Shown here: piece after piece, positions 5,379 to 23,504 of the stretch
Position numbering within the stretch: the first letter of the stretch is position 1
How the letters are laid out: the number at the start of each line of letters is the position of its first letter
Source: a virus
Reading direction: 5' to 3' (one strand)
Length of the DNA: 23,812 nucleotides
Virus record (IMG/VR): IMGVR_UViG_3300025138_000357
Coordinates: 1 to 23,812 of that record
Notes under the pieces: model-generated
Database searches by the model: none
The model's input: only the letters and a program-made list of their open reading frames with translations
What the model was told of the DNA's origin: nothing
Position numbers and translations under genes: made by a program

Positions 5379-5418
5379 AAGTGTAACTTTATTTTAATTA
5401 TAACTGTTTATATGTGCC

Positions 5419-5450
5419 TAAATATACGAAATATAATTTGGGGAGCCAAA
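5419..5450 (-). promoter_or_regulatory. Candidate Bacteroidota-type promoter for the gp32-uvsX-helicase-nrdB run
   Basis: On the minus strand TTTG (5450-5447) is followed by a 20-base spacer and TATATTTA (5426-5419), 40 nt before the gp32 ATG. This matches the flavobacterial housekeeping pattern TTTG/TTG, 17-23 bases, TAnnTTTG with one mismatch in the second box. A very similar second box precedes the polymerase gene at 7184-7191. It lies in one of the few real gaps of this half of the window (5379-5450), so early or middle transcription by host polymerase is plausible. Confidence 0.5.
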
Positions 5451-7167: not shown

Positions 7168-7183
7168 ATACCTTTATTTTACC

Positions 7184-7191
7184 CGAATATA
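7184..7191 (-). promoter_or_regulatory. Candidate promoter box before the DNA polymerase gene
   Basis: The minus strand reads TATATTCG, a one-mismatch match to TAnnTTTG, within ATTTCGTATATT, a string shared almost exactly with the promoter before gp32. It is 16 nt before the polymerase ATG. No TTG box is visible 17-23 bases upstream, which makes this weaker than the gp32 copy. It marks the border between the structural genes and the replication cassette. Confidence 0.35.
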
Positions 7192-7200
7192 CGAAATTAT

Positions 7201-8043
7201 TTAATAACCTCCACCCATTCTATTACTTCTTTGAGTTTCTGTTTTATTAATTTTATATTGGATATTAGAACCACTAACAGGGATTAAATAATCATGTGGG
7301 ATGTTTGTATGCTCTGCCCCTACCATTGGTCCTTTTGTTGGGTGAATGTGGTATAAACCAATATAAGGTTTATTAGATCTTTCTATTAAAAACTCACTAC
7401 CATCTGTTTTTAAATTTTCTCCTGGGGAGTATCTAAAATATTGATCATATACATTTTTAAAATAAGACTTAAACCCGCTTAATAAATTATTATTTTGAAT
7501 TCTTTCTACTGTTTTTTGATTAATATTATAAACATCATTTCTTTTACCTGAAATAAGCCATGGAAGACTATATACATTATACAAAGGATAATCTACGTTA
7601 GGTTCTTCATTTTCAAATTTTGTAAATTGATTTAAATCTATTTCTACATATTTTACTTCATTAACTTTTGAAGCAAAATATCTTTGAAATTCTCCTAACT
7701 CATAATCTCCTTCTGTTGGTTGGTTAGCTATAGATATTGGGGGTGAAGGTGGTATTGATTCTAAACCTAAGTTTATATTTTGAGCATATATGTCAGGTAC
7801 TAAATATAGATTAGTATCTGGTGTATATGACCCAGCTGCTCCTTCTTCTGCATCTTCTGTTTGTGGGTCAACTTCAATAATAATTTCTTGAACAGGGGCA
7901 TCATTTGGATTTCTTCCTGTATAGTATTTACCATTTGAAGTTTGAAAGTAATACCCCAAATAATAGGTAGATGAATCAGGATAAATAAATTCATTTCCAT
8001 TAGTATATAAATTAGTTGTTATTTGGGATTTTGGAAAATACAT
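7201..8043 (-). CDS. Putative tail/baseplate structural protein of unknown function
   Basis: This 280-aa protein is last in the baseplate gene run, and its ATG overlaps the stop of the 1261-aa hub gene by one base. The N-terminal part is rich in Tyr, Asn and Pro (Y-Y-L-G-Y-Y-F-Q-T near 27-35; Y-Y-T-G-R-N-P near 40-46), followed by an acidic, Pro-rich linker. The C-terminal third holds a conserved-looking His segment, Y-H-I-H-P-T-K-G near 231-238, then A-E-H and I-P-H, ending in a Gly-rich tail. No signal peptide or membrane segment is seen. I infer a virion protein from position and composition. The His cluster might bind metal, as in some phage spike and fibre proteins, but I see no family-defining motif. 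Confidence 0.75.
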   Translation of the reverse strand: MYFPKSQITTNLYTNGNEFIYPDSSTYYLGYYFQTSNGKYYTGRNPNDAPVQEIIIEVDPQTEDAEEGAAGSYTPDTNLYLVPDIYAQNINLGLESIPPSPPISIANQPTEGDYELGEFQRYFASKVNEVKYVEIDLNQFTKFENEEPNVDYPLYNVYSLPWLISGKRNDVYNINQKTVERIQNNNLLSGFKSYFKNVYDQYFRYSPGENLKTDGSEFLIERSNKPYIGLYHIHPTKGPMVGAEHTNIPHDYLIPVSGSNIQYKINKTETQRSNRMGGGY

Positions 8044-11000
8044 TATTTATTAAATTTTTGAAATAGTTGAAGTAATTCTTTCTGTGGGAAAACATCACTT
8101 TTATCTGTTCTGTAAGAATTATGGGTAAAAGTTCCTCGATTCTTACTAAAAGCGGTTGATGCTACACCACCACCTTTTTTAGGGAATTGTTCATAAAATC
8201 CATTTCCTCCACTATACTTTGATCCAAAAGTAATATTTGGAAATTTAGTTTTAACTTGTTTCATTACTTTTTCTAAAGATTTTAACTGTTTTTTAGTATA
8301 AGAATGAAAAAGACCATATCCTTTATAATCACCCCAAGGTTTTAATTTATTGCTGCTATCCATGTAATAAGGTTGTGCTACAGGTACATCAGATTGACCT
8401 TGTTGTAATTTTTCATAAGTATAACTTCTATCACTTTGTATAAATACTGAATCTTTATTAAATGTAGAGTTACTTCTGCTAGTACCTTTAACTTTTACAT
8501 ACCCTAAAGCTACTAACTCTACAGAAACTGTACTTTTTTGGAGATAACTATTACCTGCTCTTTTAGATCCAATATGGTTACCCCAAAAATCTAAGGGGAA
8601 TAATTGTTCTATTCTACCTGCTCTATCTATAATAAAGTGAGTTGAAACATGAGTACTCTTTTTACTCCAACTATTTTCTATAATGGCTTTAGCTCCACCT
8701 AATCCTGCTGTGTGATGTACTACAAATTGAATTTTTGGTGTTTTTATAGGGTAATACATTAACCCATTATTTGATTGAGCTCTTAATGAATACCCATTGG
8801 TTAAAGTTTTAGCAAATTTTTCATCTCCAGTCCATGGATTTACGACTACATTACTAGATAGAGTTTCTCCTTTAACAAAAATTTCTTTAGGTTTTACAAT
8901 CTTTCTTATATCACCCTTAGTAGTTCTAGGGGTAGATATTGTAGTAAGTGAAGTTTCCCATATATTAGATTTTACTTCATGATCTACACCATCTACTAAA
9001 AAATTTAAAAATGCTGGATATGTTGAGGGTAATGCTTTTTGATTTACAGATAAAGAATTATAAATATTAATCCCCCCTATACCATCAAAAGTAAATCCTA
9101 AAGTTACAGGGATAAAACCAGTTGAACCTCCTACTTGTGAAGCAACCTCAAAATTATTTTTATCTATTGAATTTTTATATTTTTTAAACATATTATATCC
9201 TCTTTCCATAAAATCCGGATTATCTGAAGTATACCAATATAGGGCATCAGATGTTCCTACTTGTTGCATTACAAAAGTAGATTCTCCCCCCAATCCTGTT
9301 TGTGCTCCTTCAACAACTGGTATATCTGTAGCTACTGCAGTATTTGGGTTTTTTAATACTTTTTTTCTAATATTTGCATAAATAGGTTTACCACCTTCAC
9401 TTCCTATTTTTTCTCTAGTTGTAACTGTTTTATATAAATCTTTAGTTTTAACAAGTATTTTTCTAGTACCTGTTCCACCAAATGCATCTAATAAATAAGT
9501 AGGATAATCATTATATCCATCTTTAGCATTACCTGCTGAATCTGCAAATGTTGTTTGGTTTGAAGTATTTATTTGGGCTACTGAAGCGTCAATTTCTTTA
9601 ACTTGTTTTTTGAATAATTCTTGAAAAGCAGGATCTGCCCAATTTGTTGAGTTAAAACTCCAATACGAAGTTTCTTCAGTAGCTAGATACATTGTATAAC
9701 CTTTATAAGTCCATTTATATCCTTTATTTGCAACATAACCTGATGTTGGACGCCCTCCCACATCAGATTTAAATTTATCAAAAGATTCTTTAAAATATGC
9801 AGCTTCATCTATTGCTGCTTGTTCTGTAGTTGGTAATGCTGGTGGTAAAAAATTATCTGTAGGACCCTGTTTGTAAGTTTCTTCAAATCTATTTTTAAGA
9901 CCACTATTCCAATTTAAAAAACCTATAGCATCTACAGAATTAGTAGGAGAACCTGGGGCTGCTGCTCCCATAGAAATTTGGTTCATTAAACTAGGTGTAA
10001 TTTTAGTTTGAAAATTAAAATCTTTTACAAAAGTTGAAGTGCCATCAGAATTATACCCCACAATATTAAACACCGCAGGATTTTGGTTTATTTTAGGGTA
10101 AACTTGATCATATCCTTGTATTGGGTTTTCATCTAAAAAATATATAATATTATCATTTTTTATACAGGTAGTAAGCTCACAAACATTACCCATGCATTTA
10201 TTAATACCATCTAATAGTTTTTGTAAAAAATCAAATAGAGTTACATTTCCTTTTTTATCCTTATTAGAAGATAAAGTTTTAGATATAAAATCCATATTAA
10301 GGTAAACATTCATTAATTCACCATGATAAACTCCATCTTTTTCTTTTACAAAATCTTTAAGTGATGAAAAAGTGGGTAGGTTTACATTTCCAACAACCCC
10401 TATATCATCAGTATATATAGGTTTAAATATACAGATTGAAGGATCTAAAGGTATTAAATTTGGTTCATAACTAATTCTAGTAAATTTTTCCGATCTTTCA
10501 AATTCTATAGTAGGTGATGTTCGAGAATTTCCGTTTGCAACCCTTAATATTACATTGTTTTCTATTTTTTCTATTAATTCTCCAAACCTAATATAAAATC
10601 GTGAAGATGGAGGAACTTTACTTCTATTAATATTAGCATCGTTTTGGGCATTACCTGCACTATATGCTCCTATTGTATTTGGTAAATAACAATAATCTTT
10701 ACTATTTTGAAGACCAGCATCGAAAAAACTTTCAATTTGTTGGGCTAAAAAAGTAGATAATAAGTCAGTTCCTAAATTACCAATTACACTATTAGATTCT
10801 ACGTCTGTTGATGATTCTTCTCCTTCTTTAGGTGCTTGATTTATTTTATATAACGTTTCAAGTTTTGTTTTTCTTAGTTTAAGTTGTTGTGAGCTTATAG
10901 GAGGAGATGGAACAATAACTGATATTGATTCTATTACAGCTCCTATAGTAATTAAATTTATTGTAATATCATAAGTATTATCTTTATTTAATTTCCAAGT

Positions 11001-11828
11001 AAAGTTATTTACTTTACCAAAAAATCCTTGATAATTTCCTTTATAAGTATCTACAAACCCATTTATATTTTTTAACATTTCTAATTGAGTAAAAGATTTA
11101 CCACTCTTAAACCAATCATTTTCTATTATAGTAGATTCTACTTGTTTAAAAACAGGTTTATTATTATCATCTATAGAGTCTATATACTTATCCCAACCCC
11201 ATTCTAACATCATTAAATAGCCTAATCTTAAATAAAGTATTTCAATAATACCAAATTGGAACTTATTATATGCTTTTAAAGTTACAACTGCTTTTCTAAT
11301 TGAACCCCTATTAATACTTTCAACTTTTATACCAGTAATACCAGGAACAGGTTGTAGTCCTCTACTACTACCCCCCATTCCACCATAAGTTTTATTATTA
11401 CTACCTTTCCAAGTATTAGTATTTCTTACACCACTTCTACTAATATATGTAGCATTAGTTGTTTGAACTATCTGATTGCTATTTCCTTCTCCTACTTTTT
11501 CTCTTGTTGCCCCCTCTTCTAAGGATTGTATAGTATTAAATAAAATGTAATTTTTAGCTAATTCTATTCCTGATAGTGAATTCTGATCATCTTCAGTAAA
11601 ATAATCCTCAGTTTCAAGTTGTGCTAAATCCTTTAATCTAGTAGTATTTTTTAACGCAACTCCAGAGGCTAATTTTATCCAAGCATTTTTATTATTTAGA
11701 AAATTTAATACTTCAGGAGTTCTTTCTATAGATTTTCCATTGTAACCAGCACCTTGTAATTTTTGTCTTAAATTAATTTGGTCACTAACTACTTTTTTAA
11801 TTGGATCCCCAATTATATTTCCTGCCAT
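8043..11828 (-). CDS. Large baseplate hub protein with C-terminal N-acetylmuramoyl-L-alanine amidase
   Basis: At 1261 aa this is the largest protein of the window. The N-terminal part includes a hydrophobic helix-like stretch near 195-214 (G-I-I-E-I-L-Y-L-R-L-G-Y then M-L-E-W-G-W), of the kind I associate with T4-like hub proteins. A long beta-rich middle follows. Residues about 1030-1261 form an amidase_2 (T7 lysozyme/PGRP-like) domain: V-V-H-H-T-A-G with His1038/His1039, T-H-F-I-I-D-R-A-G-R-I, N-H-I-G, V-S-V-E-L-V, and near the end T-H-N-S-Y-R-T-D-K-S-D-V-F-P with His1236 and Asp1242/Asp1245 as likely zinc ligands. It would cleave the peptide stem from glycan strands when the tail penetrates the wall, the job done by the gp5 lysozyme domain in T4. 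It directly follows the gp53-like gene. The amidase is secure; the hub assignment rests on context. Confidence 0.85.
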   Translation of the reverse strand: MAGNIIGDPIKKVVSDQINLRQKLQGAGYNGKSIERTPEVLNFLNNKNAWIKLASGVALKNTTRLKDLAQLETEDYFTEDDQNSLSGIELAKNYILFNTIQSLEEGATREKVGEGNSNQIVQTTNATYISRSGVRNTNTWKGSNNKTYGGMGGSSRGLQPVPGITGIKVESINRGSIRKAVVTLKAYNKFQFGIIEILYLRLGYLMMLEWGWDKYIDSIDDNNKPVFKQVESTIIENDWFKSGKSFTQLEMLKNINGFVDTYKGNYQGFFGKVNNFTWKLNKDNTYDITINLITIGAVIESISVIVPSPPISSQQLKLRKTKLETLYKINQAPKEGEESSTDVESNSVIGNLGTDLLSTFLAQQIESFFDAGLQNSKDYCYLPNTIGAYSAGNAQNDANINRSKVPPSSRFYIRFGELIEKIENNVILRVANGNSRTSPTIEFERSEKFTRISYEPNLIPLDPSICIFKPIYTDDIGVVGNVNLPTFSSLKDFVKEKDGVYHGELMNVYLNMDFISKTLSSNKDKKGNVTLFDFLQKLLDGINKCMGNVCELTTCIKNDNIIYFLDENPIQGYDQVYPKINQNPAVFNIVGYNSDGTSTFVKDFNFQTKITPSLMNQISMGAAAPGSPTNSVDAIGFLNWNSGLKNRFEETYKQGPTDNFLPPALPTTEQAAIDEAAYFKESFDKFKSDVGGRPTSGYVANKGYKWTYKGYTMYLATEETSYWSFNSTNWADPAFQELFKKQVKEIDASVAQINTSNQTTFADSAGNAKDGYNDYPTYLLDAFGGTGTRKILVKTKDLYKTVTTREKIGSEGGKPIYANIRKKVLKNPNTAVATDIPVVEGAQTGLGGESTFVMQQVGTSDALYWYTSDNPDFMERGYNMFKKYKNSIDKNNFEVASQVGGSTGFIPVTLGFTFDGIGGINIYNSLSVNQKALPSTYPAFLNFLVDGVDHEVKSNIWETSLTTISTPRTTKGDIRKIVKPKEIFVKGETLSSNVVVNPWTGDEKFAKTLTNGYSLRAQSNNGLMYYPIKTPKIQFVVHHTAGLGGAKAIIENSWSKKSTHVSTHFIIDRAGRIEQLFPLDFWGNHIGSKRAGNSYLQKSTVSVELVALGYVKVKGTSRSNSTFNKDSVFIQSDRSYTYEKLQQGQSDVPVAQPYYMDSSNKLKPWGDYKGYGLFHSYTKKQLKSLEKVMKQVKTKFPNITFGSKYSGGNGFYEQFPKKGGGVASTAFSKNRGTFTHNSYRTDKSDVFPQKELLQLFQKFNK

Positions 11829-14317: not shown

Positions 14318-14506
14318 TTAGTTTCCTACATTACCAGTTACGTCTGATGCTCTTGGAGTATCAACTACATAATCTTGATAAGTACCAACTTCAAATGTGT
14401 TATTAATAGGAATTACCCCATTGCCCTTTAAAGGTGCTGATGGTGTTTCTCCTCTAAGTGGAGTTAAAGTACTTCCTTGTTGTTCTAATCTGTTAAGTAA
14501 AGGCAT
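14318..14506 (-). CDS. Small putative structural protein, 62 aa
   Basis: I do not recognise it. It is Pro/Thr/Gly-rich (T-L-T-P-L-R-G-E-T-P near 13-22; V-I-P-I-N-N-T-F near 31-38; Y-Q-D-Y-V-V near 43-48). The gene has its own late-type element about 30 nt upstream and ends 2 nt before the 723-aa baseplate gene, so it would be the first cistron of the baseplate run 14506-7201. Position and composition suggest a minor virion component or assembly factor. Short coding length is the main uncertainty, but spacing to both neighbours supports it. Confidence 0.7.
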   Translation of the reverse strand: MPLLNRLEQQGSTLTPLRGETPSAPLKGNGVIPINNTFEVGTYQDYVVDTPRASDVTGNVGN

Positions 14507-14531: not shown

Positions 14532-14546
14532 TTTATTATAAATATT
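14532..14546 (-). promoter_or_regulatory. Late-type element before the 62-aa gene and baseplate run
   Basis: The minus strand reads AATATTTATAATAAA, the shared core TATTTATAATAAA found before four other tail-region genes. It lies in the 41-base gap after the tape-measure stop, 30 nt before the ATG at 14506. It contains a perfect TATAAT and also the exact reverse complement of the T4 late box TATAAATA. It would start the transcript for the baseplate genes. Confidence 0.5.
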
Positions 14547-14547
14547 A

Positions 14548-16779
14548 TTATTGTATAGAAAATGCACCCATATCTACAGCTGTACCTAGAGCTACATCAT
14601 TCATTTGTATTACAGGTTGTGGTGCTGGTTTAGATAAAACCTCAGCTAATAAATTTTCCATTTTTGATGTATCAATAGTTTGGGCGGGAGCTTGTTGGTT
14701 TTGGGTTGGGAATAATTTAGTTCCTGCTATTACAGTATCTTTATTATTTAAAGCAATAGCTCCTTCAGGCCCCAATAATGTTCTATTACCATATCCTGAT
14801 CCTCCAGGAGACATTATATCATCACCAGATTTAGCTCCAGCTAAAAGACTCATCAATCCCGCTATAGCTGCAACACCAAGAGCAATACCAGCTATAGCAC
14901 CTATAGGACCTAATGAAGCCATAGCAGCTGTAATTTTAGCACCTGCGCCTACTGATTGTACACCTGTTTTTTGTATTTCACTTTTTAATAACCTTTTATT
15001 TAATTTTAATTGAACTAGTTTATTTGCTGTTGTTAAAGCAAATTGAGCTACTAAAGCAGTAGTAATAATACCAACTATAACTTTAACTGCGGCTGCGTTT
15101 TCTAATAATTTAGCAAAACCTTCAACCATTCCTAATAAAGGTTCAGCAGAATTAGCTAAAGAAGATTGTATTTTATTTACTAAATCTGCCATTTTTTCTT
15201 GAACAGCTTGATTTTGATAATTTATCAGTAATTGTTTACCGTTTTCTGTTGAATTTAATTTTTCTAATTCACCTCTTTTTGCTAGCTCTTCTAAACTTGT
15301 AGCTCCTAAAGCATTTAAAGTTTCTTGATTTCTTAAAGTTTCTGCTAATTGATCAGCAGTCATCCCAGCTGCTTTAGCTAATGATTCTTGTTGTAAAACA
15401 TTCATATTAGCAAATTCAGCTGAAGATCCCATTTGTTTTACTATTTCAGCTGTTGCTTCAGCACTTTTTCCTTGTAAAGCAAGTGCTCTAGCTCGGTTAA
15501 GGTTTATAGACTTACCAGTCATTAATTCTGCTTCTAATTCTGATTGAATTGAACTTTCAAAATCAAGTAATCCTCTAGCTATTCCTTGGGTTTCTTTTAA
15601 TGAAAGGCCTAATTTATTAGAAATTATAACAGCTTCCGCTAGTGCTTTATTATTATAACCATATTGTGCTCCTAATTGCCCAGTTGCATTAGCTACTTCT
15701 TTTAAAACTTTTCTACCATCTAATCTTATTCCTGTTTCTTTTGATAAAGTTGCTACTGTATCTAAAACTTCCTCTGAAACAACTTTAGCTGATTTACCGT
15801 TAGCCATACTAAGTTTTAGTAAATTAGCTGCTTCGGCTCCTTGTAATCCTACTTTTTTAGTAAGCATTACTTGGTCTGCTAATTGTTCACTTGTAAACCC
15901 AGTTGTAGTTCCTAATGAATCCCCGAGGCCCATTTGGGCTTCTTTCATTTTTTCAACAGTTAAATAAGCTTTATTACTGTTTATAGCAAAGGTATTCATT
16001 TCCTTTCCTAAATCTCTAGCATCACTTTTAGATATTCCTAATGTTTTAGAAAATTCAGTGGTAACTTTATCAGCTTTATTTAAACCTGCTATAACAAAAG
16101 CTATAGCACCTTTACCTAAAGCATCAGTTGCATTTTTAGCTCTTTCTAATTGTGCCGCTGTTCTATCTGCACCTGTTAAACTTTTATCTATTCCTACTTT
16201 AAATTGGGCTATACCTTTAGATAAGTTTTGGATGGGACCAGCTAGTAAAGGACCAATACCTGGGAGGATTTTTAACCCTTCAGCTAGTTTATCAATAAAC
16301 CCTGTAGATTTATTTATTTCTTGAATCTGATCTTTAGATTGAGAAAATGCTTTTGTTAAATTATCTGCAGTATTAAGTGAATCTAGTAAATATTGATTTG
16401 CATCTAATAAAGCTGCACGTTCCTTATCGGTTGCAGTTGCAAGTTTTTTCTGATTAGCTAATAATGTAGCTTCGGTTGATGCACGTTTTTTAGCTACAGC
16501 GGCTAAATCACTAGCAAGCTTATTTCTAATTTTAGAATTAGATAAATCTTGCTTCCCGTATTGTGCTAATTTTGCTGCAACACCAGATAACCCTCCAGCT
16601 TCCTTTTGGGCTGTTTTAAAAGTTTCAGCAAATTCCTTATTAGTTTTAGCATTATTAGACAATGCAGCCCCTATATCGTTAAAGGTTTGTCTAGATTCTG
16701 CGGCAATTACACTTGCTTCTTTTAGTGCATCTCTATACGCCTGGGCATCTAATTTAGATTGTTTAATTTCATCTGCCAT
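14548..16779 (-). CDS. Tail tape measure protein
   Basis: The protein would fill the tail lumen and set tail length. It is 743 aa (T4 gp29 is 590 aa). Residues 1-160 are charged helices rich in Ala, Lys and Gln, in coiled-coil style. A helical middle follows, then hydrophobic stretches near 560-580 and 616-650, as in other tape measures, where such segments may enter the host membrane. The C-terminus has S-P-G-G-S-G-Y-G-N-R and G-P-E-G-A-I-A-L-N-N-K-D-T-V-I-A-G, a common tape-measure ending. At about 1.5 angstrom per residue, the usual rule for this family, the tail would be around 110 nm. It follows the two chaperone-position genes and has its own late-type element upstream. Confidence 0.88.
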   Translation of the reverse strand: MADEIKQSKLDAQAYRDALKEASVIAAESRQTFNDIGAALSNNAKTNKEFAETFKTAQKEAGGLSGVAAKLAQYGKQDLSNSKIRNKLASDLAAVAKKRASTEATLLANQKKLATATDKERAALLDANQYLLDSLNTADNLTKAFSQSKDQIQEINKSTGFIDKLAEGLKILPGIGPLLAGPIQNLSKGIAQFKVGIDKSLTGADRTAAQLERAKNATDALGKGAIAFVIAGLNKADKVTTEFSKTLGISKSDARDLGKEMNTFAINSNKAYLTVEKMKEAQMGLGDSLGTTTGFTSEQLADQVMLTKKVGLQGAEAANLLKLSMANGKSAKVVSEEVLDTVATLSKETGIRLDGRKVLKEVANATGQLGAQYGYNNKALAEAVIISNKLGLSLKETQGIARGLLDFESSIQSELEAELMTGKSINLNRARALALQGKSAEATAEIVKQMGSSAEFANMNVLQQESLAKAAGMTADQLAETLRNQETLNALGATSLEELAKRGELEKLNSTENGKQLLINYQNQAVQEKMADLVNKIQSSLANSAEPLLGMVEGFAKLLENAAAVKVIVGIITTALVAQFALTTANKLVQLKLNKRLLKSEIQKTGVQSVGAGAKITAAMASLGPIGAIAGIALGVAAIAGLMSLLAGAKSGDDIMSPGGSGYGNRTLLGPEGAIALNNKDTVIAGTKLFPTQNQQAPAQTIDTSKMENLLAEVLSKPAPQPVIQMNDVALGTAVDMGAFSIQ

Positions 16780-16790
16780 TTAAGAAACGT

Positions 16791-16805
16791 TTTATTATAA
16801 ATATT
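16791..16805 (-). promoter_or_regulatory. Late-type element before the tape measure gene
   Basis: The minus strand reads AATATTTATAATAAA within an extended A/T context, ending about 11 nt before the ATG at 16779. It is the same core as before the sheath, tube, 62-aa and coiled-coil genes. It fills most of the 37-base gap after the preceding gene, which leaves a leader of only a few bases if it is a -10 type box. Confidence 0.5.
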
Positions 16806-16816
16806 AAAAAAAATAA

Positions 16817-17149
16817 CTATTTATAGCTACTTTTTCCTTGATATGGCTTTGATGCATTTTTAAATTGTGAAGTATTAACTTGCCCATCTGAGTTAACTAA
16901 TGATGTTTTACCTGGATTGCTTTGAGCTTTTATTTTTTGGTTTTGTTCATCATTAAAATCTTGAATTTCTTTAAAAGTAAATTTTCTTAACCAAATGGGC
17001 ATATTATATATTGTAGTCCAATCATACCCACCATTACCATGGTAAACTATGTTATGTATTTGTCTAAAAATGCTTTGTCTAACAGAGGATGCTTCTTTAG
17101 AGCTCAGGCCAAAAAAAGTTGATATTAACAGGGATGGATTTTTTGTCAT
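16817..17149 (-). CDS. Second gene of a tail-assembly-chaperone-like pair
   Basis: This 110-aa frame overlaps the end of the upstream gene by 53 nt in the +1 frame and ends just before the tape measure. It contains N-I-V-Y-H-G-N-G-G-Y-D-W near 33-44, then M-P-I-W-L-R-K-F-T-F-K-E-I near 50-62, followed by a Lys/Gln/Ser-rich tail that looks disordered. In T4 the small gp51 follows gp26; in many other tailed phages an overlapping frame here is read by ribosomal frameshift as an extension of the chaperone. The ATG at 17149 could serve as an independent start, so both modes remain possible. No enzyme motif is visible. Confidence 0.7.
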   Translation of the reverse strand: MTKNPSLLISTFFGLSSKEASSVRQSIFRQIHNIVYHGNGGYDWTTIYNMPIWLRKFTFKEIQDFNDEQNQKIKAQSNPGKTSLVNSDGQVNTSQFKNASKPYQGKSSYK

Positions 17150-17825
17150 TTGAGTTATCGGGAAAAAAAGTCAAATCCACATCAGGTTGGATTTGTTGAA
17201 TATATTCTCGTAATGCTCGAGAATCCCGAGCTAAAAGAGCAGTATCTACAAATTCCCTAATTTTAGGGTTTTCTGTTTCTCCATTAATTGAAGTAATCAT
17301 ATATTTTAATCTAGTAGATAACTCAGGGTTTGCTTCTTTATTAAACCTTTTAAGTCCTTGTAATTCTTGTTGAATTTTTATATCATCTCCATGTGTAAGA
17401 AGTTTAAATGTAATTGCAATTTTAGAATGAGGTAAAGTAAAACCAAAATCATTTTTACCAGGAGAATAAAAACTAGAATCTAATTCTTTATTTTCTATAT
17501 CTGATAAGTTAACTTCGTATTCTTTTTCTAAGTAGGTAAATTTATATTCTCCTCCATAACCTAATACACGAGCTGCTACCATTATAGCATTTTTATCTCC
17601 TACTATAAGATCATTATAGTTAATTTTAGTAACAATTAAAGATTTTAATAATTTATCAATTACTGTTCCTTTTTCAATGTAGGATTGATTAGTTAAAATA
17701 TCTTCTTCCTTAGCGGTCATATATTTAATTTCAATTTTACCACTTGATAAAGGATTGTCTTTTAAATATACTAAACCTTTTGAAGGTAATTCTATTTCTT
17801 CTGTTGGGAATTTAAATTCGGCCAT
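17097..17825 (-). CDS. Tail assembly chaperone / baseplate hub gp26-like protein
   Basis: This 242-aa soluble protein lies between the tube and tape-measure genes, the usual site of tail assembly chaperones. The start L-P-S-K-G-L-V-Y near 13-20 and K-Y-M-T-A-K-E-E-D near 34-42 resemble a class of phage proteins annotated as gp26-like hub proteins or chaperones. Acidic and helical segments follow, and the C-terminus ends N-F-F-W-P-E-L. It would be non-structural or hub-associated and coordinate tube polymerisation around the tape measure. Its leader (17826-17872) holds no late-type element and lies just after a terminator, so expression probably depends on read-through or an unseen promoter. 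I am confident it is a gene; its exact role is inferred from position. Confidence 0.72.
   Translation of the reverse strand: MAEFKFPTEEIELPSKGLVYLKDNPLSSGKIEIKYMTAKEEDILTNQSYIEKGTVIDKLLKSLIVTKINYNDLIVGDKNAIMVAARVLGYGGEYKFTYLEKEYEVNLSDIENKELDSSFYSPGKNDFGFTLPHSKIAITFKLLTHGDDIKIQQELQGLKRFNKEANPELSTRLKYMITSINGETENPKIREFVDTALLARDSRALREYIQQIQPDVDLTFFPDNSNDKKSIPVNINFFWPEL
17099..17170 (-). other. Candidate +1 frameshift zone joining the two chaperone-position frames
   Basis: From the last stop of the downstream frame (TGA at 17173-17171) to the stop of the upstream gene (17099-17097), both frames are open. Two runs of seven T in sense orientation lie here, 17169-17163 and 17117-17111. At the first, codons TTT CCC could slip +1 to TTC CCG with tRNA-Phe still paired; at the second, TTT TGG could slip to TTT GGC. 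A fusion of roughly 320-340 aa would result. This is a sequence possibility only. Confidence 0.35.
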
Positions 17826-17872
17826 AATCTTTATTTAATTAAAACATTTGTTCGTTAATACATATACAATAT

Positions 17873-17903
17873 AAAAAAAAGCTTGACCTAAGCCAAGCAA
17901 TTT
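17873..17903 (-). terminator. Rho-independent terminator after the tail tube gene
   Basis: On the minus strand GCTTGGC, loop TTAG, GTCAAGC (17898-17881) forms a 7-bp stem with one G-U pair, followed directly by eight T (17880-17873). It begins about 30 nt after the tube stop codon. A-rich sequence on the upstream side could pair with the T run, and a short T run also lies on the other strand, but there are no plus-strand genes to terminate. It would end most sheath-tube transcripts before the chaperone gene. Confidence 0.8.
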
Positions 17904-17928
17904 TTCAAATTAAGGGTGGGTAAAATTT

Positions 17929-18417
17929 TTAGAAATTTAATACACAATAATCTGGTTGTACAGTCATTGTAATTTCTTGAGCAGCACCGTCTTGGTCCCA
18001 ACCAAAATCTCCAAATGAAACATCTGTAATCATTGCTCCTTTAATAATCCATTCTGAAACAATATCGCCTACAGGTCCTAGTACATTGATTGTAAGATCT
18101 TTCTTATAGAAATCACTATAACCATCTCTACCAGTTACTGATTCGTGATGTAATCTAACCCATTCCATTACTGATTGTGCACCAGATGGAGTAATTGGAT
18201 CAAATAATGTGAATTCAATAGTTCCCCAAGTTGTTTTACCTTTTACAAATCTTTGAACATTAATGTGATTTAAAGGTACTGTTCCTTGTGTTAGTGTTAC
18301 AGCTCCTACACCTTTCATAATGTAAGCTGGGAATCCATCTACAAAAGCGATAAATCTATTCTTTTGTTTTGGTTCGAAAGCTGTGAAAAATATTTCGTTT
18401 GGGTTTAATACTGCCAT
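17929..18417 (-). CDS. gp19: Tail tube protein, T4 gp19-like
   Basis: This protein polymerises as hexameric rings to form the inner tail tube through which DNA passes. At 162 aa it is nearly the length of T4 gp19 (163 aa). The order of features is that of the family: an N-terminal A-F-E-P-K-Q-K-N-R-F-I-A-F-V-D-G near 14-29, W-G-T-I-E-F-T-L-F-D-P near 64-74, W-V-R-L-H-H-E near 86-92, and a C-terminal strand D-V-S-F-G-D-F-G-W-D near 132-141 followed by E-I-T-M-T-V-Q-P-D-Y. It follows the sheath gene, as in T4, has its own late-type element and is closed by a terminator, consistent with very high expression. Confidence 0.93.
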   Translation of the reverse strand: MAVLNPNEIFFTAFEPKQKNRFIAFVDGFPAYIMKGVGAVTLTQGTVPLNHINVQRFVKGKTTWGTIEFTLFDPITPSGAQSVMEWVRLHHESVTGRDGYSDFYKKDLTINVLGPVGDIVSEWIIKGAMITDVSFGDFGWDQDGAAQEITMTVQPDYCVLNF

Positions 18418-18430
18418 TTTATTTTTTTAT

Positions 18431-18445
18431 TTTATTATAAATATT
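18431..18445 (-). promoter_or_regulatory. Late-type element before the tail tube gene
   Basis: The minus strand reads AATATTTATAATAAA, preceded by GATA and ending about 13 nt before the ATG at 18417. It occupies the 42-base gap after the sheath stop codon. With the terminator after the tube gene it could produce a monocistronic tube transcript. Confidence 0.5.
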
Positions 18446-18459
18446 TATCTTTTTAATTT

Positions 18460-20760
18460 TTATGCCGGAAATGTTGCTCCAGTTGGTAATACATTGAAAT
18501 CTAATAATATAAATTCAGCTGTTCTTGTTGGTTGTAAGAATATTTGTCCTACTAACTCATTTCTATCAATAACATCTGGTGTATTATTTTGTTCATCCAT
18601 TACTACTTTAAATGCATATAATCCTTGTCTTTGTTGAACACTTTCTAAATATGGATTTACTTGTGTTAAAAAGTTTTGTCTTGTTGCTATTGTATTTTGT
18701 TCAAATACTAAATTATCAGCAATTTGAGAAATATAATCCTTAAGTGTAATTAACAATCTACGTACATTTACTCTATCTAGGGCAGAAGCAGCTTTTTGTA
18801 GTGTTTTCTGTCCAAATACTACAACTCCTTGTTGTGGGAAAGTAGCGATTGGGTTAACATTTGCTTCATATAAAGCATCTCTATTATTAGAAGTTAATTT
18901 TCTTTCAGCTCTAACAACTTGTCCCATTCCTCCTCTAGTAATACCTGCTGGCGCAAACCATGGATCACTTGAAGCATCTGTAAATGCATATACTCCTGGT
19001 ATAAAGGTTGATGCTGGGATAAATACTAATTGTCCTGAATTTGGATCAATTGTTTGTAACCATGGCCAATATGTAGCTGTGTAGCTATTATCTATCCCTC
19101 CGGACTGGCCTATTACTGTGTTTATTGGTTGATTGTACGTTACTAAATCGATTACCGCAATACTATCACCACGTGTAATGGAATTATTCATTACGCTTGT
19201 AATTTGCGAAGCATGTGTTTGATTAGTTAAACCAGGTACTGATATTACATTATATTGATAATCATCTTGGTTAGCTAATAAAGCAATTGCGTTTGTATAA
19301 TCAGATCCTACTAATCCCTGAGAATCATTTTGATTTATGTTTTGGTAAAAATTAGCTACTCTGTTTACAGGTATGTTAGATCCTAATGCTCCATCAAATG
19401 AACCAGATCCTAATTGAGGTAATGAGCTTGTAAATTCTGGTTTTGCAATACCATTATTTTGGAAATAACGTGGTGTTGCTGAATCTACTGATTTTACTCT
19501 AACATAACTAGATATTAATGGGAATGAACCTGATTCTTGTAAAAAAGTATCTGTTCCTTCTGTTATTAATGTAGTTGTTATATCACCAATTGCTCTTGAA
19601 ATATAATTCGGAGAAAATGGGTCTAAAGAAATATTATTATATGTTTCTAACACTACAGGTCGATTAGCATCATCATTTCCACGTCTAATTGCTAATGAAA
19701 ATACTCCAGAAGAAGTATTAACACTTGTAACTTGCCATCTTAAATTTTGAGCTGAACCACTTGCTAAAGCACCACCTGGTAATTCTTGATACGATGTATC
19801 AGAATTTAAAGGGAATGTATTATTCATTATCGAGCCTTCTGATATTGTTTCTAATACAAAAGAAGGATTATTTTCTATATTGGCATCAGTTAATGTAAAA
19901 GTTGGTGCTATACCAGGATTACCTATACTTGATCCTGCTATAGATACTACTGTTGGAGTTGTAGTTTCATATCCTGTTCCATCTTCTACTACAACAATGT
20001 TTGAAATTTCAGTTAAAAGTTGAGATTGTATTAAAGCACCTACATTATAAGTACCACTTCCTCCAAGAGCTGAACCTTCTATAGTAAGAACATCACCTAC
20101 TTTAAATCCACTTCCTACATTAACTATAGTAATTTGAGTAATAGCAGAACCTGCAACCGTAATGTCTGCTGTAGCTGCTGTACCTGATCCACCACTTAAA
20201 GCAACACCATTTGCTGAACTTGCTACAACACCACCACTACCTAAAGTTAAATTCCCTACTACTAATATTCCATTTGAATTACTAGTTGTTACATCTACTA
20301 CTGCACCACTACCTGCTCCTGAATCTGTTACTACTGCTACTTGTGAATAAGTTTGAGGAGCTGATGATCCACTACCTTGGTTTGCTGTGACAGCTGGTAA
20401 GTTAACTAAACCACCTGATAAGGATTCTACATTATTTTGGATTGTTGTTGATACTGCAGGGCTCCAATTAGAATCTGAACCAGAAGCTACTCTTGTTACT
20501 AATAAAGAAGTTCCACCATTTTGAAAATATTGGTTTGCTGCTATAGAAGTAAGGTAAGTATATTCGTTAGATCCACTTTGTAAAGCTCCACCAAACAATG
20601 CTTGATACGAGCTAAATGAACTGATGAGAGTAGGTCTTTCAACTGGTCCCAATACTGTTGGGCCTATGATTGCTGCACCTCTGTCAACTGGTTGGGAAGT
20701 AACGAAGGATTGGTCGTTTTCTCTTGCTAATACACCTGGAGATATTAATGTTTCTGCCAT
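18460..20760 (-). CDS. gp18: Contractile tail sheath protein, T4 gp18-like
   Basis: The sheath surrounds the tube and contracts to drive it into the cell. The 766-aa protein starts with the typical I-S-P-G-V and R-G-A-A-I-I-G-P near 27-34, then F-S-S-Y-Q-A-L-F-G near 49-57. The C-terminal part is typical of the family: N-R-D-A-L-Y-E-A-N-V-N-P-I, F-G-Q-K-T-L, V-N-V-R-R-L-L, and a last strand T-R-T-A-E-F-I-L-L-D-F. It is about 100 aa longer than T4 gp18 (659 aa). The extra length fits an insertion near residues 102-297, rich in Gly, Ser and Thr, with two repeat-like strands (I-V-N-V-G-S-G-F near 212-219, V-V-V-E-D-G-T-G-Y near 256-264). Inserted domains of sheaths sit on the outer surface in known structures. 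Confidence 0.95.
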   Translation of the reverse strand: MAETLISPGVLARENDQSFVTSQPVDRGAAIIGPTVLGPVERPTLISSFSSYQALFGGALQSGSNEYTYLTSIAANQYFQNGGTSLLVTRVASGSDSNWSPAVSTTIQNNVESLSGGLVNLPAVTANQGSGSSAPQTYSQVAVVTDSGAGSGAVVDVTTSNSNGILVVGNLTLGSGGVVASSANGVALSGGSGTAATADITVAGSAITQITIVNVGSGFKVGDVLTIEGSALGGSGTYNVGALIQSQLLTEISNIVVVEDGTGYETTTPTVVSIAGSSIGNPGIAPTFTLTDANIENNPSFVLETISEGSIMNNTFPLNSDTSYQELPGGALASGSAQNLRWQVTSVNTSSGVFSLAIRRGNDDANRPVVLETYNNISLDPFSPNYISRAIGDITTTLITEGTDTFLQESGSFPLISSYVRVKSVDSATPRYFQNNGIAKPEFTSSLPQLGSGSFDGALGSNIPVNRVANFYQNINQNDSQGLVGSDYTNAIALLANQDDYQYNVISVPGLTNQTHASQITSVMNNSITRGDSIAVIDLVTYNQPINTVIGQSGGIDNSYTATYWPWLQTIDPNSGQLVFIPASTFIPGVYAFTDASSDPWFAPAGITRGGMGQVVRAERKLTSNNRDALYEANVNPIATFPQQGVVVFGQKTLQKAASALDRVNVRRLLITLKDYISQIADNLVFEQNTIATRQNFLTQVNPYLESVQQRQGLYAFKVVMDEQNNTPDVIDRNELVGQIFLQPTRTAEFILLDFNVLPTGATFPA

Positions 20761-20784
20761 TTTATTCTGTTATTTTAATATTGT

Positions 20785-20799
20785 TTTATTATAAATATT
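20785..20799 (-). promoter_or_regulatory. Late-type element before the sheath gene
   Basis: The minus strand reads AATATTTATAATAAA in the 57-base gap upstream of the sheath gene, ending about 24 nt before the ATG at 20760. It is identical over 15 bases to the elements before the tape measure, tube and 62-aa genes. Confidence 0.5.
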
Positions 20800-20817
20800 A
20801 AAAATCCTTTCAAAAAA

Positions 20818-21072
20818 CTATTTTGTTACAGTAAATTCTCCACTTTTTAAATCAATATTTCCTTGACCATATTTATCTTGTAATTCTTTAGCTGATTTGT
20901 TAGATTTTTCTTGTAGGTTAGCTAATTCTTCTAAAACTACACTTCTTTGCCCCTCTAATATGGCTTTTTGAATATCAACATTACCTAACTCAAAGGTAAT
21001 TTGATTTTGTTGTTGTTGATAACCTTTTAGAATTTCTAATTCTTCTTTTGATAACTTAATTGATTTACTCAT
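20818..21072 (-). CDS. Small coiled-coil protein of unknown function, 84 aa
   Basis: I do not recognise a named family. The protein is almost entirely charged helix with heptad-like spacing (L-S-K-E-E-L-E-I-L-K near 7-16; V-V-L-E-E-L-A-N-L-Q near 45-54), predicted as a coiled coil, with a short beta-like end (G-E-F-T-V-T-K). It is a separate transcription unit with its own late-type element upstream and one downstream before the sheath gene. Its position beside the sheath and the late element suggest a small structural or assembly protein. Clear start, A-rich leader and exact fit between two elements support a real gene. Confidence 0.75.
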   Translation of the reverse strand: MSKSIKLSKEELEILKGYQQQQNQITFELGNVDIQKAILEGQRSVVLEELANLQEKSNKSAKELQDKYGQGNIDLKSGEFTVTK

Positions 21073-21082
21073 TTTATTTTTG

Positions 21083-21094
21083 TTTATAAATATT
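21083..21094 (-). promoter_or_regulatory. Late-type element before the 84-aa coiled-coil gene
   Basis: The minus strand reads AATATTTATAAA, the divergent member of the set: it keeps AATATTTATA but continues ACAAAA instead of ATAAAA. It ends 10 nt before the ATG at 21072, in the 37-base gap after the glycosyltransferase-like gene. Confidence 0.45.
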
Positions 21095-21109: not shown

Positions 21110-22081
21110 CTACCATAATTCTTCATAATTTATATTGACATAATTAGAACTTTTATATTCTTTCATTAGATCAATAAAATTATCTTTGTATACATAACCT
21201 ATCTTTTTTATTTTAGGTAAATGTATTAATTTTTTTCTATCTTTTATGTTTATAACTGTATTATTAACTACAAAATCAAACCCTTTTGATTTGTTGTTAT
21301 ATATTAATGCTTTAGAACTATGAGGTAATGGGTGTACTGTGGGGTGTGTTGTATCATTTTGTAATAAAATTTTAAAATCATTATGTTTACTACAATTTAA
21401 CATATCAGGTTCTTCAAATTTAATTGAATCCTGTATTTCATCTTTAAAAATAGTATAATGAAAGTTTTTAATAATATCTCCAAAATATTCTTCTGCATCC
21501 CTATAATATATAGTTTCTCCTTTTTTATTATAATAACCCTTTATATATTTTTCTTTTGAAAATAAAGGTAAAACTCTTTGTAGATTTTTTTTACTAAATA
21601 TACTAAATAATAAACTAGGAAATCTAAAATTATCCTTTACTCTTTTATCTACAACTTTACTACTTAATAAAGGTACAGGGTTTTTGATTGCTTTAATTAT
21701 ATTATCTGTAATTTTAATATCATAATTAATAAAAGTATAATGGTCAAAGTCTAAAGATAAACCTAAATTACCTGCTAATAAAATTTGATTTATTGAAGTC
21801 CAACCAAAATCAAAAAGTACATTAATAGCTTTATAAGGTTTATCAAAATCTATTTTCATCCAATGTATCATACCTCTATCAGGCCAGTGTAATATTGGAT
21901 TACTTTTATCGTAAATAAAATAATCAACTGTATCTTGAATATCCTGATTTACAGGGATATGGGATACTACTAAGATTTTTAAATTTTGTTTTTTTAAAGT
22001 TTTTATATTTTCTTCTAAAACAGAAATTTTTTCTTTTGTATTACAATGACACTGAACTATTATTAGATTTTTATTTTTCAT
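21110..22081 (-). CDS. Putative glycosyltransferase, GT-A-like
   Basis: The 323-aa protein begins with a Rossmann-type strand L-I-I-V-Q-C-H-C-N near 5-13, then a helix and a second strand I-L-V-V-S-H near 36-41, as in GT-A sugar transferases. A strand with F-I-N-Y-D-I near 116-121 is where the D-x-D-like metal site would lie. Later E-T-I-Y-Y-R-D-A-E-E-Y-F near 194-205 resembles the acceptor-side helix of family 2 enzymes. No membrane segment or signal peptide is seen. Its ATG lies inside the end of the GT-deacetylase fusion gene (11-nt overlap), so the two proteins are translated together. I infer a sugar-transfer role in the glycan module; substrate is unknown. The family assignment is less certain than for its neighbours. 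Confidence 0.55.
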   Translation of the reverse strand: MKNKNLIIVQCHCNTKEKISVLEENIKTLKKQNLKILVVSHIPVNQDIQDTVDYFIYDKSNPILHWPDRGMIHWMKIDFDKPYKAINVLFDFGWTSINQILLAGNLGLSLDFDHYTFINYDIKITDNIIKAIKNPVPLLSSKVVDKRVKDNFRFPSLLFSIFSKKNLQRVLPLFSKEKYIKGYYNKKGETIYYRDAEEYFGDIIKNFHYTIFKDEIQDSIKFEEPDMLNCSKHNDFKILLQNDTTHPTVHPLPHSSKALIYNNKSKGFDFVVNNTVINIKDRKKLIHLPKIKKIGYVYKDNFIDLMKEYKSSNYVNINYEELW

Positions 22082-23504
22082 AACAAGCTACATAGGGTGT
22101 AATATCTTTATTTTTATCATATTTAGTAATTGATTCATACTCAATATAATTAGTATCAGAATTACTTTTAAACCAACTTCCATTTTTTGTTTTAATTTGG
22201 TTAATAATAGGTTGTTCCGATTTATACAATCTAAGCAATTCTACTTTATAATCCAAATAATCTTGTTTTAATTTTTTTTCTGATTTGTTAAATACGTAAA
22301 AATTATTTGTTTCTTTTTTTACAGCATCAAAAACCAATTTATGTTGTGGGTGTCCATATTCACCAATAGGGTTATGTGTTACTATTTTTTCCCAACTTTT
22401 AAAATTAATTATATCTTTTAAATCAAATTCTTCAGTAGGGGTTAAAGTATCTTCATAATCTAATATTTCCCAAGAACTTACACCTAATTTTTTCATTACA
22501 CTTTCAAATTCTTTACTTCTAATTTTATTTGATTTATTAGTAAGACAAAGAACTTTATACTCAGAACCATGTTTTATTAATTCTGCACCCCCAAATATTA
22601 ATTCATCATCTGGATGGGCTACAATCATTAACTTTTTAGATTGATAATCATTAAATGCACGATTTAATACTGTTGAACTTTTAGATAAAACAGAAGGATC
22701 AGGACCATGTATAAAATAGGGTTCTAGTGTATTTTTATCGTACATTACATCAAATCCTTGTTTTAAAAAGTAAGGGTTTACTAGGGTTTCATCTTTTGAA
22801 CTATAATAATTATTCCAAGTAATAGGTAAATCTAATGCTTTATTTTCTTCCCATAAAATACAATTTGCTACCCTTTCTTCTGAAAATGCATTATCGTCTG
22901 TGTATACTTTTATGCTGTGGGTATTTAATTTTTTATTCCATTCTAAACATTTTTTAAAGAAATTTTTACTGTTTTTATTATAAAAATAAAATCCAGTAGC
23001 TATTATTTTACTATTTGGATTTCTTTGAATATTTTTTATTGATGATAGTTCTCCACCGTAGTTTCCTGTTAATCTTATATTATTTAAACTTCTCCATTGG
23101 TTAATATCATTATGAAAATATTTCATAAATAAAGGATAATCTTTTAAATTATTAATATACTGTAAAGATTTATCTATATGTTCTGTAACAAAAGCATCTC
23201 CATCTATCCAAGCAAAATTATCATATTTTTCATTTAAAGAATCTAAACTAGCTAAATATTTAGCAAAATATATAGAATAATCTTTATAAAGTAAATCAGG
23301 TTCATGTGTGTTTTTTGATGTAAGTTTAGGTAGATAATCAATTCTTTTATTAATTACATTGGGTAAATCGATTGTAGAATTACAATTGAAACTATACACT
23401 ATAAGTTTGTGTTTAGAATATTTTAATAAACTTTTAGCAAGTACCTCAATCATTAATAAATAACTTTGGTCTCCTCCTGTTATCCAAACAAATTTTTTAC
23501 CCAT
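22071..23504 (-). CDS. Glycosyltransferase fused to PIG-L/LmbE-type deacetylase
   Basis: This 477-aa protein has two domains. Residues 1-285 look like a GT-A glycosyltransferase: F-V-W-I-T-G-G-D-Q-S-Y near 5-15, then F-A-W-I-D-G-D-A-F-V near 97-106 with the D-x-D at 101-103. Residues 291-400 are a PIG-L/LmbE de-N-acetylase: A-H-P-D-D-E at 296-301, and H-N-P-I-G-E-Y-G-H-P-Q-H at 377-388. By comparison with MshB the zinc ligands would be His297, Asp300 and His388. An N-acetyl sugar would be deacetylated and transferred, or transferred and then deacetylated. The gene is 12 nt after the heptosyltransferase-like gene and overlaps the next by 11 nt. The deacetylase is secure; the transferase half is likely. 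The acceptor is unknown. Confidence 0.85.
   Translation of the reverse strand: MGKKFVWITGGDQSYLLMIEVLAKSLLKYSKHKLIVYSFNCNSTIDLPNVINKRIDYLPKLTSKNTHEPDLLYKDYSIYFAKYLASLDSLNEKYDNFAWIDGDAFVTEHIDKSLQYINNLKDYPLFMKYFHNDINQWRSLNNIRLTGNYGGELSSIKNIQRNPNSKIIATGFYFYNKNSKNFFKKCLEWNKKLNTHSIKVYTDDNAFSEERVANCILWEENKALDLPITWNNYYSSKDETLVNPYFLKQGFDVMYDKNTLEPYFIHGPDPSVLSKSSTVLNRAFNDYQSKKLMIVAHPDDELIFGGAELIKHGSEYKVLCLTNKSNKIRSKEFESVMKKLGVSSWEILDYEDTLTPTEEFDLKDIINFKSWEKIVTHNPIGEYGHPQHKLVFDAVKKETNNFYVFNKSEKKLKQDYLDYKVELLRLYKSEQPIINQIKTKNGSWFKSNSDTNYIEYESITKYDKNKDITPYVACYEK

Follow-up and report, generated by a model that had tools for sequence, protein, structure and literature searches.

The late box described here is, as judged from sequence comparison, a conserved element of a large T4-related phage group, and its copies of the form AATATTTATAATAAAA most probably act as leftward late promoters of tail genes that are read by a phage gp55-like sigma factor together with the host core polymerase. 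The original prediction had named late promoters served by a phage sigma factor or gp55-like protein, and this reading is now supported by the conservation of the box, its placement before structural genes, its position after terminators, the lack of a −35 element, and the discovery of a protein resembling gp55 in full-length relatives. In the proposed mechanism, the phage-encoded sigma (the KNV73_gp118 family) would be produced earlier in infection, with early and replication genes placed under a host-sigma-type promoter. Bound to the host RNA polymerase core, it would recognize the core TATTTATA at the place of the T4 box TATAAATA, about −13 to −6, with no −35 element, and the A/T-rich stretch after the core would melt. 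The leaders would then be roughly 7–25 nt long in the window. We infer that the box works late and that the start-site register is as in T4.

The window is the whole stretch of DNA that was analyzed, a 23.8-kb fragment (23,812 nucleotides) of an uncultured virus with T4-type genes, all of which are transcribed leftwards. Its left part holds genes for NrdB, a DnaB-type helicase, an exonuclease, a UvsX-like recombinase, and SSB, and its right part holds baseplate, tube, and sheath genes. The genes that concern the box, all on the minus strand, are a 62-aa gene (14318–14506), a 743-aa gene in the tape-measure position (14548–16779), a baseplate-hub gene (17097–17825), the gene for the T4 gp19-like tail tube protein (17929–18417; phrog_4542, E 1.4e-24), the gene for the T4 gp18-like tail sheath protein (18460–20760; phrog_23, E 7.6e-67), and an 84-aa gene (20818–21072).

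The decamer AATATTTATA occurs in all five gaps in which it had been predicted, always on the minus (coding) strand, which gives five sense and no antisense gaps. The copies lie at 14537–14546 (core TATTTATA at 14537–14544; first T 38 nt from the ATG of the 62-aa gene), 16796–16805 (24 nt from the ATG of the 743-aa gene), 18436–18445 (26 nt from the tail-tube ATG), 20790–20799 (37 nt from the tail-sheath ATG), and 21085–21094 (20 nt from the ATG of the 84-aa gene). The extended 15-base form AATATTTATAATAAA is exact at four of these sites, and with it the perfect TATAAT that had been noticed in four copies. The fifth copy, which starts at 21085 and not at 21083 as first given, reads AATATTTATAAACAAA, with the downstream part AACAAA in place of ATAAAA. 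The boxes do stand before start codons, but the distance from their 3′ end to the ATG is 11–25 nt and not the 12–30 nt first proposed. No copy precedes the replication genes of the window, as had been claimed, and one extra copy is intragenic (9059–9068). The resulting count of six was reached by none of 100 dinucleotide shuffles. In 20,000 simulations under a Markov model that had been trained on the eight intergenic gaps of the window, motif included, at most two gaps carried the motif, compared with the five observed. The 14-mer originally described, with three mismatches allowed, showed no enrichment (58 matches vs 53 expected), since such a loose search has no power in A/T-rich DNA; what carries the signal is therefore the core in its exact form.

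A sixth site was absent from the original prediction. The gap before the hub gene carries TATGTATT at 17857–17864 (minus strand), 39 nt before the hub ATG, in the place where orthologues carry TATTTATA or TATGTATA-type variants, and its sequence and the orthologues make it a probable variant late box. Directly upstream of it and 3′ of the tail-tube gene stands an intrinsic terminator, GCTTGGCTTAGGTCAAGC followed by eight T, at 17873–17898 (minus strand). A hairpin and T-tract after the tail-tube gene recur in the orthologous gaps of many relatives, and such a conserved terminator is consistent with high expression of the tube.

Conservation was studied in 156 related IMG/VR loci, collected in two scans that took the sheath and tube proteins of the tail as queries. 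Equal frequency of the motif in coding DNA, named at the outset as an outcome that would speak against a promoter, was not what these loci showed: ATATTTATA was counted 534 times in intergenic and 61 times in coding DNA, a density 188-fold higher outside genes, and 515 of the 534 intergenic copies have a start codon on the same strand within 150 nt. Antisense boxes are almost absent. Counted over distinct upstream regions, whose sequences are related and therefore not independent, the exact box precedes the tail tube in 121/121, the sheath in 40/42, the 62-aa gene in 40/41, the 743-aa gene in 10/11, the 84-aa gene in 60/112, and the hub gene in 28/103. Many of the hub and 84-aa regions without an exact box carry one-base variants such as TATGTATA and TATTTATC. 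Three co-transcribed genes with no gap to their neighbor have no box in any of 117 regions. When 113 tail-tube gaps were compared, the ten columns of the box were invariant and the flanks were variable.

The box was also recovered from complete genomes by de novo k-mer enrichment in gaps, with no motif supplied; as a positive control, the method recovers TATAAATA from T4. In Flavobacterium phage immuto, the top sense gap words are TATATTTA and TATTTATA, and in Microcystis phage Mel-JY01 the top word is ATATTTAT, with a strong sense bias in both phages. Their tail tube proteins are 58–59% identical to that of the window, a divergence that guards against pure inheritance of the box. In immuto, the box stands before 14 of 54 structural genes vs 10 of 171 others, and its sites precede the terminase, portal, sheath, tube, hub, tape measure, and tail-spike genes. 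In Mel-JY01 and at many sites of immuto, other A/T bases come after the box; an E. coli-type TATAAT −10 element is ruled out on this ground, and the shared core is TATTTATA. Among the papers searched, none joins ATATTTATA with phage and promoter, and none mentions Mel-JY01. As a separate observation, Mel-JY01 encodes its own ribosomal protein S21 (RpsU), in a gene that lies amid those for the capsid (locus L166, 22183–22410).

The candidate sigma factor emerged from these complete relatives, in keeping with the suggestion that a gp55-like gene should be sought elsewhere; the window itself, a 23.8-kb fragment, lacks a sigma gene. The PHROG late-sigma model phrog_234 matched one immuto ORF, KNV73_gp118 (E 0.008), whose family is conserved, "hypothetical", and not annotated as sigma. 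Alignment of this family with nine gp55 sequences by hhalign gave 91.9% with an E value of 6.9e-7 over 108 co-linear columns (residues 1–111 to 1–113). Weak Sigma70_r2 matches were found in 7 of 21 family members, with scores close to the one that T4 gp55 itself obtains under this model. The AlphaFold model of gp118 is all-helical and of moderate confidence (pLDDT 74.6, pTM 0.47), and its six best Foldseek matches in the PDB are chains of sigma factors or RNA polymerase holoenzymes, at E values of 0.68 or more that alone prove nothing. Searched against PDB sequences, the sigma profile of the family returned two unrelated marginal matches and no sigma. Taken at sequence level, the gp118 family can be described as a domain that resembles sigma region 2, aligns co-linearly with gp55, and is remotely homologous to it.

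The family is widespread, with 57–91% identity in the best 80 IMG/VR loci of at least 600 matching stretches, and homologues in Mel-JY01 (36%) and in the uncultured phage LR756508 (40%). Two 160-kb relatives have both the sigma gene and a box before the tail tube. PHROG gp55 models found no match on the IMG/VR fragments, because these cover 37–62 kb around the tail genes and leave the sigma gene out of reach. We infer that a sigma of the gp118 family would read the TATTTATA box, and the phage of the window presumably carries such a gene. The pairing of sigma and box is not universal: LR756508 has no TATTTATA before its tail genes, and the box that its sigma homologue had led us to predict there failed to appear in the tail region. 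For the sliding clamp gp45, PF02916 gave a match in T4 but none in immuto, in Mel-JY01, or in either of the two large relatives, although a diverged clamp could escape this model.

It is unlikely that no phage factor is involved and that the box is read by the host housekeeping sigma, Bacteroidota sigma-A with its −33 TTG or TTTG and −7 TAnnTTTG. This explanation draws on the ATATTTA that late and early elements share and on a second element in the same phages that does look host-type. In immuto, this element has the form TTG-N-TATATTTAGG, resembles the Bacteroidota housekeeping promoter (PMC9723704), and precedes clusters of small genes. The window has two copies on the minus strand, both of the form TTTCGTATATT followed by TAGG or CGGG. 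The first, TTTCGTATATTTAGG at 5417–5431, matches the immuto element and stands before the SSB/UvsX/helicase/NrdB run; from its sequence, it is likely a host-type early or middle promoter. The second, TTTCGTATATTCGGG at 7182–7196, stands before a 423-aa gene that would be DNA polymerase A-like, judged by its position relative to immuto. Such host-type elements suggest a Bacteroidota host for the window. Since separate elements precede the late genes and the early and replication genes, there are two promoter classes, one for each gene class, and the late box departs from the host class in several respects. It lacks the −33 element: of the immuto early elements, 94% have TTG at −24 with respect to ATATTTAGG, whereas just 1% of late boxes have it at this spacing. 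Compared with the consensus (PMC6847099), A replaces T−12 in 73% of copies and G−5 in every copy, and TAHHTTTG is found near only 13 of the 515 boxes. Furthermore, the same box tops the gap words in phages of Flavobacterium and of a cyanobacterium, Microcystis, so the phage and not the host sets the box.

A signal at the RNA level, either an A/U-rich translation enhancer or a processing site in the leaders of tail genes, is very improbable. It would suit flavobacteria, which have no Shine–Dalgarno sites and show a preference for A at particular positions ahead of the start codon (PMC6847099), and a few copies of the box do adjoin the AUG. The distance from the first T to the AUG, however, is far from fixed: its median is 26 nt, and it ranges from 10 to more than 45 nt over the 515 sites in relatives. 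In Mel-JY01, the box lies mostly 39–48 nt from the AUG with a GGAG/GAGG-like sequence in between, and the distance is shorter in the immuto group, whose hosts translate without Shine–Dalgarno sites. This varying spacing is consistent with a promoter that suits its leader to host translation, and it speaks against an RNA-level signal. Co-transcribed internal genes, moreover, never have the box. At 32 of the 515 sites, vs none of the 61 coding copies, the T-tract of a terminator runs straight into the box, the arrangement with which a fresh unit of transcription opens. Upstream of the late box, no conserved hexamer was seen at −35/−33, where TTG reaches 4% at most at those spacings. The position after terminators, the lack of a −35/−33 box, and the variable distance to the AUG thus point to a promoter and not to a translation signal. 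A small group of sites is harder to place. At 13 of 515, the box is so near the AUG that a start in the T4 register falls at or after it. In several orthologues of the 84-aa gene, the box ends 2–3 nt from the ATG (L132 at 999, L141 at 1002, L151 at 7898, L130 at 6425, L134 at 626, L143 at 4185, and L147 at 329), so close that a transcript begun at the usual distance from a promoter would lack the start codon. Leaderless messages are known in flavobacteria, where they make up 5.5% of mRNAs (PMC9723704), yet these gaps of 2–3 nt stay unexplained.

The late box of T4, TATAAATA, which is served by the sigma gp55 with the co-activator gp33 and the clamp gp45, occupies −13 to −6, is followed by A/T-rich sequence, and has no −35 element (PMC1524935, PMC2988020). 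The promoters proposed here are alike in having an 8-bp TATA box with A/T-rich sequence downstream, no −35 element, a place before structural genes, and a gp55-like sigma. They differ in the central AA, which has become TT in TATTTATA, in the conserved A/T extension AATATTTATAATAAAA, in a sigma that is only remotely related to gp55, and in gp45, which the Pfam model did not detect. As had been pointed out, TATTTATA and TATAAATA are exact reverse complements of each other, and a T4-type box used in the opposite direction, for antisense or bidirectional initiation, had been raised on this basis. Such a use is highly improbable. Every copy faces its downstream gene, and sense TATAAATA, which is enriched in T4, is not enriched here. 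The two boxes differ by two central bases (TAT-AA-ATA to TAT-TT-ATA), for which divergence in the same direction is simpler. Because all copies point at their genes, they are read as a two-base variant and not as a reverse complement; an opposite orientation is unneeded, as TATTTATA read in the sense direction already agrees with the spacing in T4. By analogy, the system would work like T4 late transcription, but a strict definition by the T4 box leaves it outside, with TATTTATA two bases off and sense TATAAATA unenriched in the group.

T4-type boxes are known to vary between phages. The marine cyanophages S-PM2 and Syn9 have late promoters NATAAATA (PMC2984593), and Aeromonas phage Aeh1 has the late box CTAAATA together with a diverged gp55 (PMC1524935). 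These boxes change the upstream end, whereas the present box changes two central bases. Rhodothermus phage RM378 (loci L167 and L271) is a further T4-like phage for comparison: its most enriched gap word, TATTTAAA in 17 gaps, begins with TATTTA, and its hypothetical protein Rm378p020 matches the gp118 sigma family weakly (E 2e-4). Unlike the present box, the word ends with AAA and not ATA, and both strands are enriched, which leaves its orientation ambiguous; it is possibly the late box of RM378 itself.

A chance product of gaps that are 85% A+T, or a functionless mobile repeat, is hardly credible, as it is contradicted by the simulation, the conservation by gene family, the strand bias, and the ten core columns fixed in tail-tube gaps with variable flanks.

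Tentatively, T4-like late transcription could have a branch of its own that extends over phages of Bacteroidota and cyanobacteria, where a lineage of diverged gp55 has re-specified the two central bases of the late box and may work without a T4-type clamp. The phage-sigma reading supplies a promoter signature that is short and strict, together with a candidate sigma, for abundant but little-studied aquatic T4-like phages, whose late genes become recognizable from sequence alone, even in fragments. The pairs of gp55 with TATAAATA and of the gp118 family with TATTTATA would make it possible to test which residues of a sigma recognize the central bases of a −10-like element, and whether all T4-like late transcription is coupled to a clamp.

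Two further observations concern other parts of the window. Upstream of the tail cluster lie two overlapping genes (21110–23504, minus strand). The 323-aa product of one (21110–22081) matched no PHROG family, and the 477-aa product of the other (22071–23504) has phrog_11796, of unknown function, as its sole match. In the baseplate cluster, a 1261-aa protein (8043–11828, minus strand) has a C-terminal amidase domain and apparently combines a baseplate protein and a lytic enzyme in one chain.
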